Shown: positions 3,797 to 10,847 of the stretch, piece by piece
Numbering within the stretch: position 1 is the stretch's first letter
Layout: every line of letters begins with the position of its first letter
Assembly (NCBI GenBank): GCA_903937385.1
Contig: CAIZZF010000023.1
Span: 1 to 35,276 of the forward strand
DNA: 35,276 nt
Reading direction: 5' to 3'
Source of the DNA: an uncultured Holophagaceae bacterium
Lineage (GTDB): Bacteria > Acidobacteriota > Holophagae > Holophagales > Holophagaceae
Program-made: the position numbers and the translations under genes
The notes under the pieces: model-generated
What the model saw: the letters and a program-made list of their open reading frames with translations, nothing else
Databases searched by the model: none
Told to the model about the DNA's origin: nothing

Positions 3797-3998
3797 GGGA
3801 GCCTCCTTGGTTGGTCCGCCCCATTATCGGCTTCTTCGGGCGTTCCGGGGACGGCTGATTAACCGCCGAGATCCCTAGCAGGACCCAGGCATGCGGGTGT
3901 GTTCTTTGTGTTTAATTCCTTGGTCCTTTCTTCTTATCGTTCTTGGCTTCATGACTCCAACCGGGAAGCCTTCGCCGGATCTCGTCTACCCTGGTCCC

Positions 3999-5156
3999 AT
4001 GCGCCTCTCTTCCCGTCTTCCGCAGGGTCTCGAGCCCAACGCCCTGTCCGCAGCCCTGGCCCGGCGGCGCGCGGCGGGGCAGGCGGTACTGGACCTGACG
4101 GTGTCGAACCCCACCCGCTGCGGCTTCAGCTATCCCGAGGCGGCGATCCGCGCGGCCCTGGCCGAGCCGGCGGTGCTGGCCTACGATCCGGATCCTCTGG
4201 GCACCCGCTCCGCCCGGCAGGCCGTCGCGGCGCACCACGGGCACGGGCTGCGGGCCGAGGAGCTCCTGCTCACGGCCTCCACCAGCGAGGGCTACGGCCT
4301 GCTCTTCAAGCTGCTGGGCGACCCCGGGGACGAGGTGCTGGTGCCCAGCCCCGCCTACCCGCTGTTCCACTGGCTGGCGCGGCTGGAGGGCCTGGTGGCC
4401 CGGCCGGTGCAGTCCTACTTCCACGAGCGCTGGCACCTGGACCTGGGGGCCCTGGAGGCGGCGACTGGTCCGCGCACCCGGGCTGTGGTGGTGGTGAACC
4501 CCAACAACCCCACGGGCCACTTCCTGTCCCGGGCCGAGTGGGACGGCCTGACGGCCCTCTGCGCCCGCCGGGGCCTGGCCCTGCTGGTGGACGAGGTCTT
4601 CGCGGACTACGCCCTGGAGCCGCCCGAGGATCGCCTGGCCACGGCCCTGGCCGACCCGACGCCGCCCTGCCCGGTCTTCCTGCTGTCGGGCCTCAGCAAG
4701 GTGGCCGCCCTGCCGCAGCTCAAGCTCGGCTGGATCGCCGTGCGGGGCCCCGGCGCCGCCGAGCACCTGGAGGCCCTGGCCTTCCTGGCAGACCAGTACC
4801 TCTCCGTGTCCGCCCCGGTGCAGGCCGCCGCTGCGACCCTGCTGGCCCTGGCGCCTGGGCTGCGGGCGCAGGTTCAGGCCCGGCTCCGTGCCAACCTCGC
4901 CGCCCTGGACACAGCCCTGGCGGAATATCCACACCTGAGCCGTCTGGCCGTGGAGGGGGGCTGGTCCGTGCTGCTGCGCCGCCCCGCGGTGGACGCGGAC
5001 GAGGCCTGCGCCCTGCGGCTGCTGGAGGCCACCGGTACCCTGGTCCATCCCGGCTCCTTCTTCGACGTGCCCGGCGATGGCCACCTGGTGCTGAGCCTGC
5101 TGACGGCGGAGAGTGATTTCGCGGAGGGCCTGCGCAATGTCTTCCCGCTACTCTGA
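3999..5156 (+). CDS. Fold-type I PLP-dependent aminotransferase
   Basis: A 385-residue aminotransferase class I/II protein. Family landmarks include LDLTVSNPTRCGFSYP near the start, NPNNPTG at residues 167-173, VDEVFADYAL, and the PLP-binding Lys about residue 234 in LSGLSKVAALPQLKLGW, with Arg near the C-terminus. It should transfer amino groups between an amino acid and an oxo-acid in the cytoplasm; the substrate cannot be read from the sequence. An in-frame upstream ATG at 3891 would add a 36-residue hydrophobic, lower-GC extension without family similarity, so I chose the ATG at 3999, though no good ribosome site is seen for either. The stop is 25 bp before the DUF4178 gene. Confidence 0.85.
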   Translation: MRLSSRLPQGLEPNALSAALARRRAAGQAVLDLTVSNPTRCGFSYPEAAIRAALAEPAVLAYDPDPLGTRSARQAVAAHHGHGLRAEELLLTASTSEGYGLLFKLLGDPGDEVLVPSPAYPLFHWLARLEGLVARPVQSYFHERWHLDLGALEAATGPRTRAVVVVNPNNPTGHFLSRAEWDGLTALCARRGLALLVDEVFADYALEPPEDRLATALADPTPPCPVFLLSGLSKVAALPQLKLGWIAVRGPGAAEHLEALAFLADQYLSVSAPVQAAAATLLALAPGLRAQVQARLRANLAALDTALAEYPHLSRLAVEGGWSVLLRRPAVDADEACALRLLEATGTLVHPGSFFDVPGDGHLVLSLLTAESDFAEGLRNVFPLL

Positions 5157-5181: not shown

Positions 5182-7194
5182 ATGACCACCCTCGCCTCCT
5201 GTCCCAGCTGTGGTGCCGCCCTGAACTTCAGGCCGGGCACCATGGTCACGGTCTGCCCTTACTGCAAGGCCTTGGCGGCGCGTCGGGACCGCAACCCCGA
5301 GCTGCTGGGCAAGGTCGCGGACCTGGTGGACACGGGCTCACCCCTGGGGCTCGGCGCCTCCGGCACCCACGCAGGCCGCGCCTTCACCCTGGCGGGCCGG
5401 GTGCAGCTGAAGCATCCCCTGGGCGGCGTCTGGGACGAGTGGTATCTGGCCCTGGACGACGGCCGCTGGGGCTGGCTGGCCGAGGCCCAGGGCCGCTTCT
5501 ACCTGACATTCACCCAGAAGCCCCACGGCACCCTGCCCCCGACAGACACGCTGCAGCCGGGCGGCCCGGCGGACCTGGGGCCCGACGGCCTCTGGACCGT
5601 GGGCGAGGTCAGCCAGGCCACCTTCCACAGCGCCGAGGGCGAGATCCCCTGGGCCGTGGACCCGGGCGCCACCTACCGCTACGCGGACCTCTCTGGCCGC
5701 AACGGGGCCTTCGCCACCCTGGACTACAGCGAGGAGCCACCCCTGTTCTTCCTGGGCCGGGAGACGCCCCTGGCGGAGCTGGGCATCCAGGGAGGCCGCC
5801 GCAAGCCCGCCAAGGTGGGCGTCCAGAGCCTCGGTTGCCCCCACTGCGGCGGGACCCTGGCCCTGCACGCTCCGGACCAGACCCAGCGCGTGGGCTGCCC
5901 CAGCTGCGGCAGCCTGCTCTCCGCGGCAGAAGGCAAGCTGACCTTCCTCAAGAGCCTCAAGCAGCCCCAACCGGATGTGGTGATCCCCCTGGGCACTGAG
6001 GGCACCCTCGGCGACGAGCGCGTCACCTGCATCGGCCAGCTGCGCCGCAGCTGCTGCATCGACGACATTGACTACCCCTGGAACGAATACCTGCTGCTGG
6101 ACAGCCAGCACGGCTTCCGGTGGCTGGTGCAGAGCGACGGCCACTGGAGCCTGGCCACGGCCGTGGCGCCGGGCGAGGTGCCCGCGGTGCGGGACGGCCA
6201 GAAGAACCTCAGCGCCCTGGGCGCGAGCTGGCGGCGCTTCCAGGACGTGACGGCCGTGGTCGAGGGCGTCTGGGGCGAGTTCTACTGGGCCGTGGAGCAG
6301 GGTGAGCGGGTGGAGGTGGCCGAGTTCGTGGCCCCGCCCCGCAGCCTCAGCTGCGAGCGGCAGGCCCACAAGGGTGGCGGCGGCGAGGTGAACTGGAGCC
6401 TGTCCACCTACCTGGAGCCCGAGACCGTGTGGAGTGCGTTCAAGCTCGAGGGCGCTCCCTCCGCGCCCCAGGGCATCGCCTCCTTCCAGCCCAACCCCCA
6501 TAAGGCGACCCTGGCGAAAGGCGCCCTCTGGCTGGTGGGCGCCCTGGGTCTGCTGCTGGTGCTAGTGATCGTGGAGTCCATGACCCACCGCAGCACAGAG
6601 CTGTTCCGCCAGCGGCTGGATCTCTTCGAGCTGGCGCGCCTCGACCCTGCCTCCGCCGCCGCGCCGGACCGGCGCATCCCCGCCAAGCGACCGGCCCCGA
6701 CGCCCGGCCCCGCGCCCGCCGCCGAGTCCCAGGAGCCCGTCTTCTTCTCGGGCCCCATCGAGATCAAGGACGGCTTCCAGAACCTGGCCCTCACCCTGGA
6801 AGCTCCGGTGAACAATGCCTGGATCTCCCTGGAGGGCGCCCTGGTGAGCGAGACCACGGGCGTGGCCGAGCTGTTCCTGGTGGAGTCGAGCTTCTACCAC
6901 GGCGTGGACGGCGGCGAGGCCTGGGCGGAGGGCGCCCAAGGCGAGACGGTCTACCTCAGCGCCGTGCCCGCGGGCACCTACGTGCTGCGCCTCGCCCCCA
7001 CCTGGGACGGCCGGGTGCCGCCCGTCCGCAGCATCGACGTGCGGCTGCGCCAGGGGGTCATGCGCTGGCTCTACCCGGGCCTCGCTCTGCTGGCCATCCT
7101 CATCGTGCCGCTGCTCCTGGTGCTCCGCATGGCGGCCTTTGAGAGCTGGCGCTGGCAGGAGAGCATGTACTCGACCAAGACCGGAGGCGGCTGA
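5182..7194 (+). CDS. DUF4178 double-domain zinc-ribbon membrane protein
   Basis: A 670-residue protein with a duplicated front half. It starts with a zinc ribbon (Cys7/Cys10 and Cys25/Cys28), then a DUF4178 domain (about 55-200) with the DEWYLALDDGRWGWLAE motif. A second zinc ribbon (Cys219/222, Cys239/242) and a second DUF4178 domain (about 265-410, with NEYLLLDSQHGFRWLVQ) follow. A membrane helix lies at about 446-466, then a Pro-rich linker, a beta-rich domain (about 525-620) probably outside the membrane, and a final helix at about 628-650 with a short tail. DUF4178 has no assigned biochemical role. The stop overlaps the next ATG by one base (TGATG), so it is the first gene of the operon through 10847. 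Confidence 0.85.
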   Translation: MTTLASCPSCGAALNFRPGTMVTVCPYCKALAARRDRNPELLGKVADLVDTGSPLGLGASGTHAGRAFTLAGRVQLKHPLGGVWDEWYLALDDGRWGWLAEAQGRFYLTFTQKPHGTLPPTDTLQPGGPADLGPDGLWTVGEVSQATFHSAEGEIPWAVDPGATYRYADLSGRNGAFATLDYSEEPPLFFLGRETPLAELGIQGGRRKPAKVGVQSLGCPHCGGTLALHAPDQTQRVGCPSCGSLLSAAEGKLTFLKSLKQPQPDVVIPLGTEGTLGDERVTCIGQLRRSCCIDDIDYPWNEYLLLDSQHGFRWLVQSDGHWSLATAVAPGEVPAVRDGQKNLSALGASWRRFQDVTAVVEGVWGEFYWAVEQGERVEVAEFVAPPRSLSCERQAHKGGGGEVNWSLSTYLEPETVWSAFKLEGAPSAPQGIASFQPNPHKATLAKGALWLVGALGLLLVLVIVESMTHRSTELFRQRLDLFELARLDPASAAAPDRRIPAKRPAPTPGPAPAAESQEPVFFSGPIEIKDGFQNLALTLEAPVNNAWISLEGALVSETTGVAELFLVESSFYHGVDGGEAWAEGAQGETVYLSAVPAGTYVLRLAPTWDGRVPPVRSIDVRLRQGVMRWLYPGLALLAILIVPLLLVLRMAAFESWRWQESMYSTKTGGG

Positions 7195-7373
7195 TGCGGA
7201 TCCTCTACCTGCTCTTCCTGGGCGGCGGCTTCAGCCTGCTGGTGGCCAACGGCTTCCTCGGCCGGGAGTTCTTCGGCAACCGCCGCCGGGCGGACCTGCC
7301 GCCCAGCGTGCGCCAGACCCCCGGCGCCTACCGCACCTTCCTGCACAACAACGGCTTCCACGGAGGTAAGTGA
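7194..7373 (+). CDS. Small membrane protein between DUF4178 and DUF350 genes
   Basis: A 59-residue ORF just under common length cut-offs. The ATG shares a base with the upstream TGA and its own TGA shares a base with the DUF350 ATG, so it fits the operon exactly. The start is hydrophobic (MRILYLLFLGGGFSLLV, then NGFLG), predicting one membrane helix or an uncleaved signal anchor, followed by a basic NRRR patch and a polar tail ending HNNGFHGGK. GC-rich third codon positions match the neighbours. No family is recognised. The GGAGGT ribosome site for the DUF350 gene lies inside its last codons, so translation of the two is probably linked. Confidence 0.75.
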   Translation: MRILYLLFLGGGFSLLVANGFLGREFFGNRRRADLPPSVRQTPGAYRTFLHNNGFHGGK

Positions 7374-7591
7374 TGTTCACGAACCAACTGCTGCACCAGC
7401 TCCTCGTCGCCGCTGTCTTCTCCATCCTGGGCCTGGTGATCCTCGGCGCCGTCTGGCTGGTGCTCATCAAGGTGCTGCCCTTCTCGCTGCGCAAGGAGAT
7501 GGAGGACGACCAGAACACCGCCCTGGGCATCGTCCTCGGCAGCCTCATCCTGGGCATCTCCATCATCATCGCCGCCGCGATCCATGGGTGA
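7373..7591 (+). CDS. DUF350 family membrane protein
   Basis: A 72-residue protein with two membrane helices (about residues 8-32 and 50-70) separated by a charged loop, RKEMEDDQNTALG. The loop with its acidic/asparagine-Thr-Ala motif and the GIVLGSLILGISIII second helix match DUF350 (YjfL-like). Full DUF350 proteins often carry two such units, so this is the short single-unit form. The ATG at 7373 has GGAGGT six bases upstream; a GTG one codon earlier is less likely. DUF350 genes are often found with polyamine or glutathionylspermidine-type enzymes, as here with the aminopropyltransferase-like gene downstream. The molecular function is unknown. Confidence 0.85.
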   Translation: MFTNQLLHQLLVAAVFSILGLVILGAVWLVLIKVLPFSLRKEMEDDQNTALGIVLGSLILGISIIIAAAIHG

Positions 7592-7610
7592 TGCTGGCCA
7601 GGAAAAGATC

Positions 7611-7691
7611 CACCACGAAGACACGAAGACACAAAGAAGTGCAAAAGATAACTGCACTTTTCATTCTTCGTGTCTTCGTGTCTTCGTGGTG
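7611..7691. repeat. Dispersed inverted repeat, CACGAAGA type
   Basis: Two 28-nt arms, 7611-7638 and 7664-7691, are inverted copies matching at 27 of 28 positions. Each arm is itself built of repeated ACGAAGAC units. An inner GTGCA/TGCAC pair shortens the loop. It fills most of the 125-bp gap between the DUF350 and spermidine-synthase-like genes. Related but more diverged elements occur at 22467 and 26505. There is no T-run after the stem, so termination is uncertain. Confidence 0.9.
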
Positions 7692-7716
7692 AAACAGTTG
7701 TCTATTGAGTTCCAAC

Positions 7717-9249
7717 ATGTCTGAACCACTGAGCGACACCCAGCCCACGCTGAAGGCGCCGCTGCTGTTTCTCAGCGTGCTGCTCATCTCAAGCTGCGGG
7801 CTGATCTACGAGCTGGTGGCGGGGACGCTGTCGAGCTACCTGCTGGGAGATTCCGTCACGCAGTTCTCCACGGTGATCGGCGTCTACCTCAGCGCCATGG
7901 GGCTGGGCTCCTACTTGTCGAAGTTCCTGCAGCGCGGCCTGGCCCGGCGCTTCGTGGACCTGGAGCTGGCGGTGGCCCTGGTGGGCGGCTTCTCGGCGCC
8001 GATCCTGTTCCAGGCCTTCGCCCACACCCACGCCTTCCGGGTGGTGCTCTATGGGGTCGTGGCCTCGGTGGGCACCCTGGTGGGGCTGGAGATCCCCATC
8101 CTCATGCGGATCCTCAAGGACCAGATCCGCTTCAAGGACCTGGTGGCGGGCGTCCTCACCCTGGACTACATCGGCGCCCTGTTCGCGTCGCTGCTGTTTC
8201 CCCTGCTGTTCATGCCCAAGCTGGGCCTGGTGCGGACCAGCCTGCTCTTCGGTCTCCTGAACGCCGCCGTGGGGCTGTGGTCCACGCACCTGCTGGTGTC
8301 ACAGCTGGGACCCACCCGGATGATCCGCCTGCGCTGCCTGGCCGTGCTGGCCATCCTGGCGGTGGGGCTGGCCTTCGCCGGGAAGTTCACCCTGGCCGTG
8401 GAGGAGGAGATCTTCGCGGACGAGATCGTCTACGCCCGGGACAGTGAGTACCAGCGCATCGTCCTCACCCGGGGCCGGGGCAGCTTCCAGCTCTTCCTCA
8501 ACGGCAACCTGCAGTTCTCCTCCGCGGACGAGTACCGCTACCACGAGGCCCTGGTGCACCCGGCCTTCGGCGTGAAGCCGGACGCGCGGCGGGTGCTGAT
8601 CTGCGGCGGCGGCGACGGCCTGGCCGTGCGCGAGGTGCTCAAGCACCCATCGGTGCAGGAAGTGGTGCTGGTGGACCTCGACCCGGCCATGACGGACATG
8701 GCCCGGCGCCAGCCCATGGTGCGCGCGCTCAACGGCGCCGCCCTGGACGATCCCCGGGTGCGGGTGGTGAACGCCGACGCCATGGTCTGGCTGCAGGAGA
8801 CCGCCGTGGCCCCCTTCGACCTGGCCCTGGTGGACTTCCCGGATCCCAACACCTACGCCCTCGGCAAGCTCTACACCGCGCGCTTCTACCGCCTGCTCCA
8901 GCGCCGCCTCACCGCGGATGCCGTCATCTCCGTGCAGAGCACCTCACCGCTCATGGCCCGGGAGTCCTTCTGGTGCATCACAGCCACCATGGAGTCCGCA
9001 GGCCTCAAGGTGCGGCCCTACCACCTGGCGGTGCCCTCCTTCGGCGTGTGGGGCTTCGCGCTGGCCTCGAAGCGCGACTTCGCGGTGCCCACCCGGGTGC
9101 TGCCAGGCCTGCGTCACCTGTCCGACGAGGCCACCGCCGCCATGTTTGCCTTCCCCAAGGACATGGACCGGGTGCCGGTGGAGGTGAACCGCCTGGACAA
9201 CCAGGTGCTCGTGCACCTCTACGCCCGGGAGTGGAGACGCTGGTCGTGA
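7717..9249 (+). CDS. Membrane-embedded spermidine-synthase-like aminopropyltransferase
   Basis: A 510-residue two-part protein. The N-terminal ~225 residues hold about seven hydrophobic helices, including SCGLIYELVAGTLSSYLLG and GVYLSAMGLGSYLSK, typical of the membrane type of spermidine synthase. The C-terminal part is a SpeE-like Rossmann domain, with YQRIVLT and LFLNGNLQFSSADEYRYHE for substrate binding, GGGDG at 297-301, VDLDP at 319-323 and VDFPDP with Asp373 and Asp376 near the catalytic position. SpeE moves an aminopropyl group from decarboxylated SAM to a polyamine; the substrate of the membrane form is not established. Start ATG 7717 is preferred to a TTG at 7705. The stop overlaps the next gene (GTGA). 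Confidence 0.85.
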   Translation: MSEPLSDTQPTLKAPLLFLSVLLISSCGLIYELVAGTLSSYLLGDSVTQFSTVIGVYLSAMGLGSYLSKFLQRGLARRFVDLELAVALVGGFSAPILFQAFAHTHAFRVVLYGVVASVGTLVGLEIPILMRILKDQIRFKDLVAGVLTLDYIGALFASLLFPLLFMPKLGLVRTSLLFGLLNAAVGLWSTHLLVSQLGPTRMIRLRCLAVLAILAVGLAFAGKFTLAVEEEIFADEIVYARDSEYQRIVLTRGRGSFQLFLNGNLQFSSADEYRYHEALVHPAFGVKPDARRVLICGGGDGLAVREVLKHPSVQEVVLVDLDPAMTDMARRQPMVRALNGAALDDPRVRVVNADAMVWLQETAVAPFDLALVDFPDPNTYALGKLYTARFYRLLQRRLTADAVISVQSTSPLMARESFWCITATMESAGLKVRPYHLAVPSFGVWGFALASKRDFAVPTRVLPGLRHLSDEATAAMFAFPKDMDRVPVEVNRLDNQVLVHLYAREWRRWS

Positions 9250-10847
9250 AGCGCCGGGACTTCCTGGCGGCGACGGCGGCCGCGGCCCTGCCCCTGGCCT
9301 GCCGCCCAAAGCCTGCCTTCCCCTTCGGCGGCGAGCTGGTGGGCCCCAACCTGGCCCTGGGCCACTGGCTGAGGGGCGGCGCCTTCCCGGAACCTGACCG
9401 CTTCGAGCCCATCTCCACACTCATCGTGGGCGGCGGCGTGGCGGGCCTCAGCGCCGCCTGGCGCCTGGCGGGCGGCGGCCTGGACGACTTCGCGGTGCTG
9501 GAGCTCGAGTCCGAACCCGGAGGCACCTCGCGCTCGGGCCAGAACCACGTCAGCCCCTTCCCCTGGGCGGCCCACTACCTGCCGGTGCCAGACCGGGGCA
9601 ACCACGCGGTGCTGCGGCTGCTGAAGGAGTGCGGCGTGCTCGAAGGCTTCGATGCCAAGGGCGACCCGATGTTTGCCGAGGAGGCCACGGTGCGGGCCCC
9701 GGAGGAGCGCATCTTCGCCCACGGGCAGTGGTGGGAGGGCCTCTACCTGCGCGCCGGGGCCAGCCCCGAGGACGAGCGGCAGTACCACGCCTTCTTCCGC
9801 GAGGTGGACCACTGGGCGGCCTTCCGCGACCGCCGGGGCCGGCCCGCCTTCAGCATTCCGCGCTCCCGCTGCTCGGACGCCCCGGAGGCCCGGGCCCTGG
9901 ACCAGCTCACCTTCGCCGCCTGGCTGGACCAGCGCGGGCTGCAGTCGCCGCGCCTGCGCTGGCTGCTGGGCTACGCCTGCCGCGACGACTACGGCTCCCG
10001 CCTGGAGACCACCAGCGCCTGGGCCGGCCTCTTCTACTTCGCCGCCCGCAAACAAGGCCCCGGCGAGGACTCCCGCCCCCTGCTGACCTGGCCCCAGGGC
10101 AACGGCTTCCTGGTGGACCACCTGCGCCGGGCCAGCGGCGACCGCCTGCGCTGCGGCGTGGCCGCCACGGCGATCCGGCCGGACCGGGACGGCCTTTGGG
10201 TCACCGCCTGGGACGCCGTGAACCAGCGCCGCCTGGGCTGGCGGGCCCGCCGGGTGATCTTCGCGGGACCGCAGCACGTGGCCAAGCACGTGGTGGAGGG
10301 CCTGGACCGCCCCGCCGCGGCCCGCATCCGCAACGCCCCCTGGCTGGTGGCCAACCTCACCCTCCGTGCCCGGCCCAAGGAGCCCACCTTTCCCCTGGCC
10401 TGGGACAACGTGCTGCGCGACAGCGAGGCCCTGGGCTACGTGGCCGCCACCCACCAGAGCCTGCGCGACCACGGCCCCACGGTGCTGACCTGGTACCGGC
10501 CCTTCGCCGGCGCCGACTGCGATGCAGAGCGCGCTCGGATGCGGGGGCTTGACTGGCCCGCCTGCGCCCGCATGGTCCTGGAAGACCTGCGGCCCGCCCA
10601 CCCGGACCTCGTGGAGCTGGTCACACGCCTGGATGTCATGCGCTGGGGCCACGCCATGGTGCGCCCGACCCCGGGCCTGCTCTGGGACCCGGAATTCCTC
10701 GCCTTGTCCCGGCCCTTCGGCGCCGTGCACTTCGCCCACACCGAGCTGAGCGGCTTCGCCCTGTTCGAGGAGGCCCAGGACCACGGCGTCCGGGCCGCCG
10801 AGGAGGTGCTGACGGCCCTGGGACGGCGCGGAGCGAGCTGGCGCTGA
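9246..10847 (+). CDS. Tat/lipoprotein FAD-dependent amine-oxidase-like oxidoreductase
   Basis: A 533-residue flavoprotein. It begins VKRRDFLAATAAAALPLAC, a twin-arginine signal running into a lipobox-like LAC, so export and lipid anchoring are likely. A dinucleotide-binding GGGVAGLSAA (Gly62-67 region) followed by LELESEPGGTSRSG is typical of flavin amine oxidases and phytoene-desaturase-like enzymes. The C-terminus has the family-like GHAMVRPTPG and HFAHTELSG segments. It probably oxidises an amine or other periplasmic substrate; next to an aminopropyltransferase, a polyamine product is an attractive inference. The GTG start at 9246 overlaps the upstream TGA by 3 nt and places the RR motif right at the N-terminus, which decides the start. 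Confidence 0.85.
   Translation: MKRRDFLAATAAAALPLACRPKPAFPFGGELVGPNLALGHWLRGGAFPEPDRFEPISTLIVGGGVAGLSAAWRLAGGGLDDFAVLELESEPGGTSRSGQNHVSPFPWAAHYLPVPDRGNHAVLRLLKECGVLEGFDAKGDPMFAEEATVRAPEERIFAHGQWWEGLYLRAGASPEDERQYHAFFREVDHWAAFRDRRGRPAFSIPRSRCSDAPEARALDQLTFAAWLDQRGLQSPRLRWLLGYACRDDYGSRLETTSAWAGLFYFAARKQGPGEDSRPLLTWPQGNGFLVDHLRRASGDRLRCGVAATAIRPDRDGLWVTAWDAVNQRRLGWRARRVIFAGPQHVAKHVVEGLDRPAAARIRNAPWLVANLTLRARPKEPTFPLAWDNVLRDSEALGYVAATHQSLRDHGPTVLTWYRPFAGADCDAERARMRGLDWPACARMVLEDLRPAHPDLVELVTRLDVMRWGHAMVRPTPGLLWDPEFLALSRPFGAVHFAHTELSGFALFEEAQDHGVRAAEEVLTALGRRGASWR

Follow-up and report, generated by a model that had tools for sequence, protein, structure and literature searches.

Operons in which a spermidine-synthase-like protein with seven transmembrane helices (7TM) stands together with DUF350, DUF4178 and a lipoprotein have been described around PspA and CesT (PMC11237479). 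In the main text of that paper the authors suggest polyamine sensing or the aminopropylation of other substrates, mention a polyamine oxidase and an S-adenosylmethionine (SAM) decarboxylase for other variants, and propose a link between polyamines and membrane stability. We have analysed a stretch of 35,276 nucleotides (nt) from an uncultured Holophagaceae bacterium (contig CAIZZF010000023.1), called the window in what follows, in which five same-strand genes at 5182-10847 form a variant of this operon family already in print. The 7TM SpeE, DUF350 and DUF4178 occur together in the window as they do in the operons of that main text, whereas a one-helix peptide takes the place of the lipoprotein, an exported flavoprotein belongs to the operon, DUF350 is half-length and not of the 8TM form, and PspA (PF04012) gave no match in any of the 25 genus genomes searched, namely the window's own (G000) and 24 others. 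The cassette therefore seems able to work without PspA. CesT/Tir is not among the window genes scanned (no genome-wide CesT search was made), and both CesT and PspA are present in an operon (L090) of G048, a genome of the sister family f3. A sequence-only reading of the window had linked DUF350 and DUF4178 with polyamine-type enzymes and similar clusters with envelope-stress contexts; this association is indeed in print, and its envelope-stress part belongs to the relatives only, since PspA was not matched in the 25 genus genomes.

The five genes were called as open reading frames (ORFs) on the + strand and overlap at three of their four junctions, just as that reading had described. The first of them, supported by an ORF call and a profile match, encodes a DUF4178 protein of 670 residues (5182..7194) and overlaps by 1 nt a 59-residue one-helix membrane peptide ending in ...FHGGK (7194..7373), our candidate acceptor. 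DUF350 follows (7370..7591; PF03994, E 1.9e-12), a two-helix form of 73 residues covering profile positions 2-66 of 133, which overlaps the peptide gene by 1 nt from its ATG at 7373, or by 4 nt from a GTG at 7370. After a gap of 125 nt, the gene of the membrane aminopropyltransferase SpeE (7717..9249, with ATG at 7717 and an alternative TTG at 7705) runs with a 4-nt overlap into that of the flavoprotein (9246..10847), which has a GTG start.

We tentatively favour the reading that the membrane-anchored peptide receives an aminopropyl group on its C-terminal lysine from SpeD and SpeE with its seven helices, which would give it a spermidine-like tail, and that the exported lipoprotein with an amine-oxidase fold then acts on this tail. 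SAM would be decarboxylated by SpeD, whose gene is unlinked to the cassette in this genome, to decarboxylated SAM (dcSAM). The acceptor would be the peptide, replaced by a lipoprotein in other lineages, anchored in the membrane and exposing a tail that ends in lysine, and in Gly-Gly-Lys in the main group. SpeE would add an aminopropyl group to the side-chain amine of this lysine, leaving -(CH2)4-NH-(CH2)3-NH2, the spermidine skeleton, in place, and the flavoprotein might oxidise the new secondary amine, which would either undo the mark or produce a reactive aldehyde. The membrane platform would be provided by DUF350 and DUF4178, plus an extra membrane protein where present. The sequences and models themselves show the genes and their order, the co-occurrence with speD, the catalytic motifs, the predicted folds and the terminal lysine, whereas the reactions, the acceptor, the membrane side and the purpose are our inference.

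The cassette is not a local feature. Searching the genome_contigs collection with the flavoprotein brought up at least 385 relatives, of which the best 80 loci were kept for locus counts. These lie in Acidobacteriota, Planctomycetota and Myxococcota, according to record titles of which a few appear mislabelled, and the nearest named contigs among the matches listed are Holophagaceae/Geothrix. SpeE is present in 64 of the 80 loci and DUF350 in 53, and the order DUF4178-DUF350-SpeE-flavoprotein is kept in all 48 loci that hold the four genes, which makes it more than chance. Gene order and strand are likewise constant in the genus loci read. The sequence-only reading had staked its grouping on an order kept beyond close relatives, and this is what is found, in several phyla. 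The aminopropyltransferase in the membrane and the exported flavoprotein with its amine-oxidase fold do belong to one conserved system. In this respect that reading is partly supported; the core role of the peptide and the contribution of SpeD had escaped it. We infer that the flavoprotein and SpeE share one substrate chain. SpeE is lacking from the stretch in 16 of the 80 flavoprotein loci, ten of which have at least 3 kb upstream, and the genomes of these ten all carry SpeE elsewhere, with 55-60% identity. The same or a similar operon is also found as plasmid copies in Pseudomonadota and Gemmatimonadota; a Novosphingobium plasmid has a run of SPFH, DUF4178, DUF4178, a 48-residue peptide, DUF350, SpeE, FAD oxidoreductase and speD. 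Further variants occur in Gemmatirosa, Burkholderia, Tritonibacter, Ensifer and Alteromonas, and in the last three the stretch read shows no flavoprotein.

A conserved element at the core of the system is the small peptide. Comparing the window copy with 17 genus loci, it is the most constrained of the five genes, with a ratio of nonsynonymous to synonymous polymorphism (pN/pS) of 0.141 against 0.163-0.332. Its middle is strongly divergent across phyla, and the exact Gly-Gly-Lys end is found in all 53 DUF350 loci, a few of these peptides being cut at the 5' end. Among the 7,273 ORFs of 40-130 residues in the 80 loci, 49 end in GGK, every one of them this peptide gene. In divergent systems, other peptides or lipoprotein-like proteins adjoin SpeE or DUF350, and the lipoproteins are not matched by the peptide profile; a terminal lysine was found in all 13 of these partners read, part of which had been picked by such endings, as detailed below (...GPSHK, ...RHGK, ...NRVK, ...PESGK, ...GSHK, ...PSSGK, ...GGRGK, ...SFSSGK three times, ...SRGGK, and ...SSGGK twice). 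The background is 9 terminal lysines among 309 other operon genes. A search for lipoboxes, blind to the ending, gave exactly one candidate in five of eight f3 loci, and all five end in lysine, L096 among these loci being a near copy of L091. Ten further SpeE loci, from the genomes whose flavoprotein is unlinked, had not contributed to the idea and were searched for Lys-ending ORFs: the peptide is present in seven, six with GGK and one with FGK. We regard the C-terminal lysine as the likeliest candidate acceptor. The words 'C-terminal lysine' and 'C-terminus' have no match in the main text of PMC11237479, leaving its supplements aside, and a literature search among freely readable papers gave nothing on this lysine tail.

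Two enzymes would act on the tail. SpeE belongs to PRK03612, 'polyamine aminopropyltransferase' (654 bits versus a cut-off of 472), and consists of a 7TM domain fused to a spermine/spermidine synthase domain carrying GGGDG and DFPDP. The dcSAM-binding GGG(D/E)G and the acceptor-site aspartates are present, and Q266, Y275, H276, E277, GGGDG, D320, D354, D373 and D376 are kept in 30/30 rows. The signature DFPDP stands in 55/55 rows, and D[FL]PDP in 11/11 divergent rows, where the Thermus aminopropyltransferase 1uir has DLTDP; the latter is also the nearest structure to the domain in the predicted model, which has seven membrane helices and a mean predicted local distance difference test (pLDDT) of 90.6. 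The flavoprotein matches PF01593 (E 1.4e-16) and has a Rossmann site for flavin adenine dinucleotide (FAD). Because of the RR and the lipobox-like LPLAC at its N-terminus, it reads as a lipoprotein exported by the twin-arginine translocation (Tat) system. Its model (pLDDT 90.7, predicted template modelling score 0.90) shows the monoamine-oxidase fold; the top matches in the PDB are monoamine oxidases with TM-scores of 0.64-0.67 by query length at 17-20% identity, and the fold matches include putrescine oxidase, a bacterial monoamine oxidase with putrescine, and spermidine dehydrogenase. Sequence comparison with the PDB gives a best match of no more than E 2.1e-4.

SpeD, whose product is the aminopropyl donor dcSAM, is the member that the five genes lack. 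DUF4178 was matched in 29 of the 60 genomes searched overall for it, the window's own included, and 28 of these 29 belong to the genus. Within the genus sample of 37 genomes, again with the window's own, DUF4178 and SpeE are both found in 28 and both missing from the same nine; strong flavoprotein matches are absent from these nine and from G035, in which the SpeE match is cut at a contig end. Of the 28 cassette-bearing genomes, 27 have the SAM decarboxylase gene speD (PF02675), against none of the nine without the cassette, the PF02675 search finding none in G017, a cassette-bearing assembly of 190 contigs. In the genus it is unlinked to the cassette: in G000 it lies at C29:64130-64516, between a tRNA (uracil-5-)-methyltransferase-like gene and DNA-repair-like genes, and the product carries an ESH motif, which we take to be the processing motif. 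Beyond Holophagae the link is physical, with speD in 32 of the 39 DUF350 loci classed as non-Holophagae, 31 times directly upstream of DUF4178, several of the seven without it being cut by contig ends; the 14 Holophagae loci have none.

Several observations weigh against the proposed aminopropylation of the peptide. A modified form of the peptide has so far not been observed. The seven f3 proteins and the Ensifer, Gemmatirosa and Alteromonas partners were first picked by their Lys endings, the other divergent partners coming from annotation (Novosphingobium) or from full ORF lists (Tritonibacter, Burkholderia). The ending-blind lipobox search found no candidate in three of the eight f3 loci (L084, L093, L095), and three of the ten further SpeE loci have no such peptide in the stretches read: L253 has DUF350 and no Lys-ending peptide was found there, and L251 and L252 have SpeE with neither. 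The topology of the peptide is ambiguous by charge. In SpeE, loops 2, 4 and 6 hold on average 8.9 Lys/Arg versus 3.1 for loops 1, 3, 5 and the part after helix 7, in 55/55 rows, and this bias together with the seven helices would place the catalytic domain outside. Such a placement would fit the Tat-exported lipoprotein oxidase and the lipoprotein tails outside, but it needs dcSAM outside the cell, for which we know of no precedent. In a genus tree of rpoB, with frames chosen by similarity and with G004 and G011 left out as they had no rpoB match, seven of the cassette-free genomes group into two supported clades, with no resolved order between them; the co-occurrence of speD and cassette in the genus may therefore go back to just one or two co-gains or co-losses, not to many. 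PF02675 SpeD was matched in none of the seven f3 genomes (G038, G040, G042, G044, G046, G048, G050), though all seven have SpeE-type matches, four of them in the membrane form, and SpeE-TM loci with a Lys-ending lipoprotein occur there; as a side reading, f3 may use another decarboxylase or a reaction that does not involve dcSAM. The G048 operon L090 runs through MscS, SpeE, lipoprotein, long DUF350, an unknown gene, an RCK potassium channel, CesT, PspA and a membrane protein to a Tat-lipobox flavoprotein at about 27-35% identity. Lastly, on a Vibrio plasmid (L245, 4641-5000), a small exported-looking ORF ending in ...NAGK lies between the genes of DUF1190 and of a peptide--spermidine ligase, partners in the E. 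coli systems discussed below.

The coding of the Gly-Gly-Lys end offers an explanation of a different kind. In the window, the codons GGA GGT AAG (7362..7370, + strand) contain the Shine-Dalgarno-like GGAGG for the DUF350 start at 7373, and GGA-GGN-AAR doubles as the DUF350 ribosome-binding site (GGAGG and A-rich bases) in 49 of 54 rows, the start of DUF350 abutting or overlapping the peptide stop in most of them. This also counts against our proposal, since the two glycines of the main group are confounded with that site. That the whole ending is just a by-product of this site is, however, hardly credible. All 13 divergent partners keep the lysine without GGAGG in their last codons (e.g., CCA TCG CAC AAA); L166 has GGC GGG AAA and its own AGGAGG for a DUF350 25 nt downstream; Minicystis has GGC GGC AAG and no DUF350 detected between the peptide and SpeE; and three f3 lipoproteins encode GGK with GGT/GGC codons. 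The end of DUF4178 lies just as near to the gene that follows in many loci, yet shows no convergence on lysine and no fixed residue (D 20/48, E 13/48). The divergent partners, L166, Minicystis, the DUF4178 control and the further SpeE loci lead us to think that the lysine is kept for the protein's sake, and we reject the ribosome-binding artefact for it; for the two glycines of the main group it is left standing, where protein and ribosome-binding reasons may both act.

The main rival is the synthesis of a free polyamine, in which SpeD and the membrane SpeE would simply act as the spermidine (or aminopropylagmatine) synthase of this genus, sited at the membrane so as to deliver outward, the lipoprotein oxidase would degrade the product, and the peptide would be a structural subunit whose lysine helps assembly. 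The intact catalytic motifs of SpeE match those of polyamine aminopropyltransferases, and the fold neighbours of the oxidase include enzymes acting on putrescine and spermidine. The cassette SpeE is the only one matched in genus genomes, the extra rows of G016 and G024 starting or ending at contig ends. In addition, a long arginine-decarboxylase-like PF02784 frame is present in genus members with and without the cassette (G000-G022), so putrescine may serve as an ordinary acceptor, a further point against modification of the peptide; OKR_DC_1 decarboxylase had no match in the 23 genus genomes searched. We nonetheless consider this route unlikely, as it does not predict a terminal lysine kept in an otherwise divergent peptide and in lipoproteins that its profile does not match. 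The lysine could instead be kept for the flavoprotein itself, which would act directly on the peptide tail as a lysine-tail oxidase while SpeE supplies something else. There is an amine-oxidase fold, LSD1 acts on histone tails, the Tat/lipobox signal of the flavoprotein is matched by lipoboxes on several tail proteins, and SpeE is found in 10/10 genomes with an unlinked flavoprotein. The loci of Ensifer, Tritonibacter and Alteromonas and seven f3 loci, however, have SpeE and a Lys-ending partner with no flavoprotein detected in the stretch, and we regard direct oxidation as quite improbable. Very improbable, in our opinion, is the aminopropylation of a lipid head group or another amine with the peptide regulating the enzyme: SpeE is embedded in the membrane and a relation between polyamines and membrane stability is advanced in the main text of PMC11237479, yet the invariant tail is left unexplained and no extra gene recurs across all phyla, the largest neighbour cluster covering 10 of 39 loci with its neighbours unannotated.

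The limits of the cassette can be drawn from cassette-free relatives. The aminotransferase gene at 3891-5156, 25 nt upstream, was considered as an operon member and rejected, as it is kept at 74-79% identity in the cassette-free G001, G004, G011 and G019. In these four genomes it is followed by a DUF2339-like gene with no cassette remnant between them, and from this clean absence we take the cassette to be exactly the five genes. The gap between DUF350 and SpeE (7592..7716, no strand), which varies from about 5 nt to more than 1 kb across the genus, is not part of the system. It holds an inverted repeat of CACGAAGA units (~7612-7690), a 16-mer with 19 copies on six contigs of the genome, often as inverted pairs, and 0 copies when read backwards; the repeat is a dispersed palindromic element that landed inside the operon. 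In the one-contig genome G020, about 13 kb lie between the peptide and DUF350 (C1, about 2520500-2533600, L073 to L074), and the operon seems to have been split there by an insertion; the first residues are missing from its DUF350 match. A role in anti-phage defence was also discarded, since PADLOC gave a single hit, of the SpeE domain to mad2 (E 3.4e-16), which we put down to a shared methyltransferase-like fold.

Some further observations concern other parts of the operons. A profile search finds two DUF4178 stretches in the DUF4178 protein (5182-7191), and its sequence is hydrophobic around residues 449-473 and again close to the C-terminus. Zinc-ribbon matches below the cut-off are LysW-like and may merit a structural look; LysW is a carrier protein modified at its own end. 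Downstream of the flavoprotein, 23 of the 39 non-Holophagae loci have a multi-helix membrane protein, here TM389 (L090 9597-10766, L160 11690-12961, L180 11601-12653), with the recurring His motifs DVAHV, HFVRQQ, THGVPY and THYVLDGFIW. The copies scanned match nothing in Pfam or NCBIfam; the protein might belong to this system as a membrane enzyme that depends on a metal. An Alteromonas plasmid (L226, 7983-14641) carries SpeE, SpeD, a 'toxic anion resistance' protein, DUF4178, a 510-residue lipoprotein-like protein ending in Lys, and DUF350.

Annotation treats membrane-fused spermidine synthases as ordinary enzymes of polyamine metabolism. Should they in fact modify the end of a dedicated peptide, the presence of speD and speE no longer implies the synthesis of free spermidine. 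Moreover, dcSAM would become a donor for protein modification, and the operons with DUF350 and DUF4178 would gain a biochemical role that can be tested.

The proposed reaction has relatives in other known systems. In the cytosolic protein eIF5A, hypusine is likewise a lysine that carries a chain derived from a polyamine; here the source is spermidine and the enzyme belongs to a different family. As for enzyme architecture, the nearest precedent for a 7TM SpeE-like enzyme acting on secreted proteins is the fungal NHMT, resident in the endoplasmic reticulum, which methylates the N-terminal histidine of secreted proteins (PMC10349129). It has the layout of the window SpeE, seven N-terminal TM helices and then a spermidine-synthase-like domain, but uses SAM and has Ile in place of D/E in GxG(D/E)G, whereas the type of the window keeps D300 in 30/30. 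The joining of spermidine to a C-terminal Gly-Gly has been shown experimentally in eukaryotes, at the LGG end of SUMO (PMC12270671, which also mentions hypusine).

A bacterial parallel is given by the E. coli operons yjfIJKLMC and ygiBC, in which a polyamine-handling enzyme stands beside an exported partner with a Gly/Ser-rich tail, as in the window. DUF350 is present in yjfIJKLMC as here, and DUF1190 with a peptide--spermidine ligase in both. YjfC and YgiC are annotated as peptide--spermidine ligases, and Gly-Gly is the ending of YjfM and YgiB, the DUF1190 proteins that accompany them; among eight ligase-adjacent partners the ends are GG in five, CG in one, GS in two and Lys in none. The chemistry differs, an ATP-grasp-type ligase standing there against SpeD/SpeE here; no such domain is found among the eight window genes scanned, no genome-wide search having been made for it. 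If, as we suppose, the Gly-Gly termini of YgiB and YjfM are the substrates of YgiC and YjfC, these ligases would make GG-spermidine. The product proposed here, GG-NH-CH(COOH)-(CH2)4-NH-(CH2)3-NH2, would differ from it only by a backbone carbon and a carboxylate. It is thus conceivable, though we hold it with considerable reserve, that bacteria possess two chemically convergent machines for giving an exported protein anchored in the membrane a spermidine-like tail at its C-terminus: one in which ready-made spermidine is ligated to a terminal Gly-Gly by enzymes of the YgiC/YjfC type, and another in which a lysine following Gly-Gly is aminopropylated in place, possibly on the outside of the membrane, and where an exported oxidase would serve as eraser or activator.

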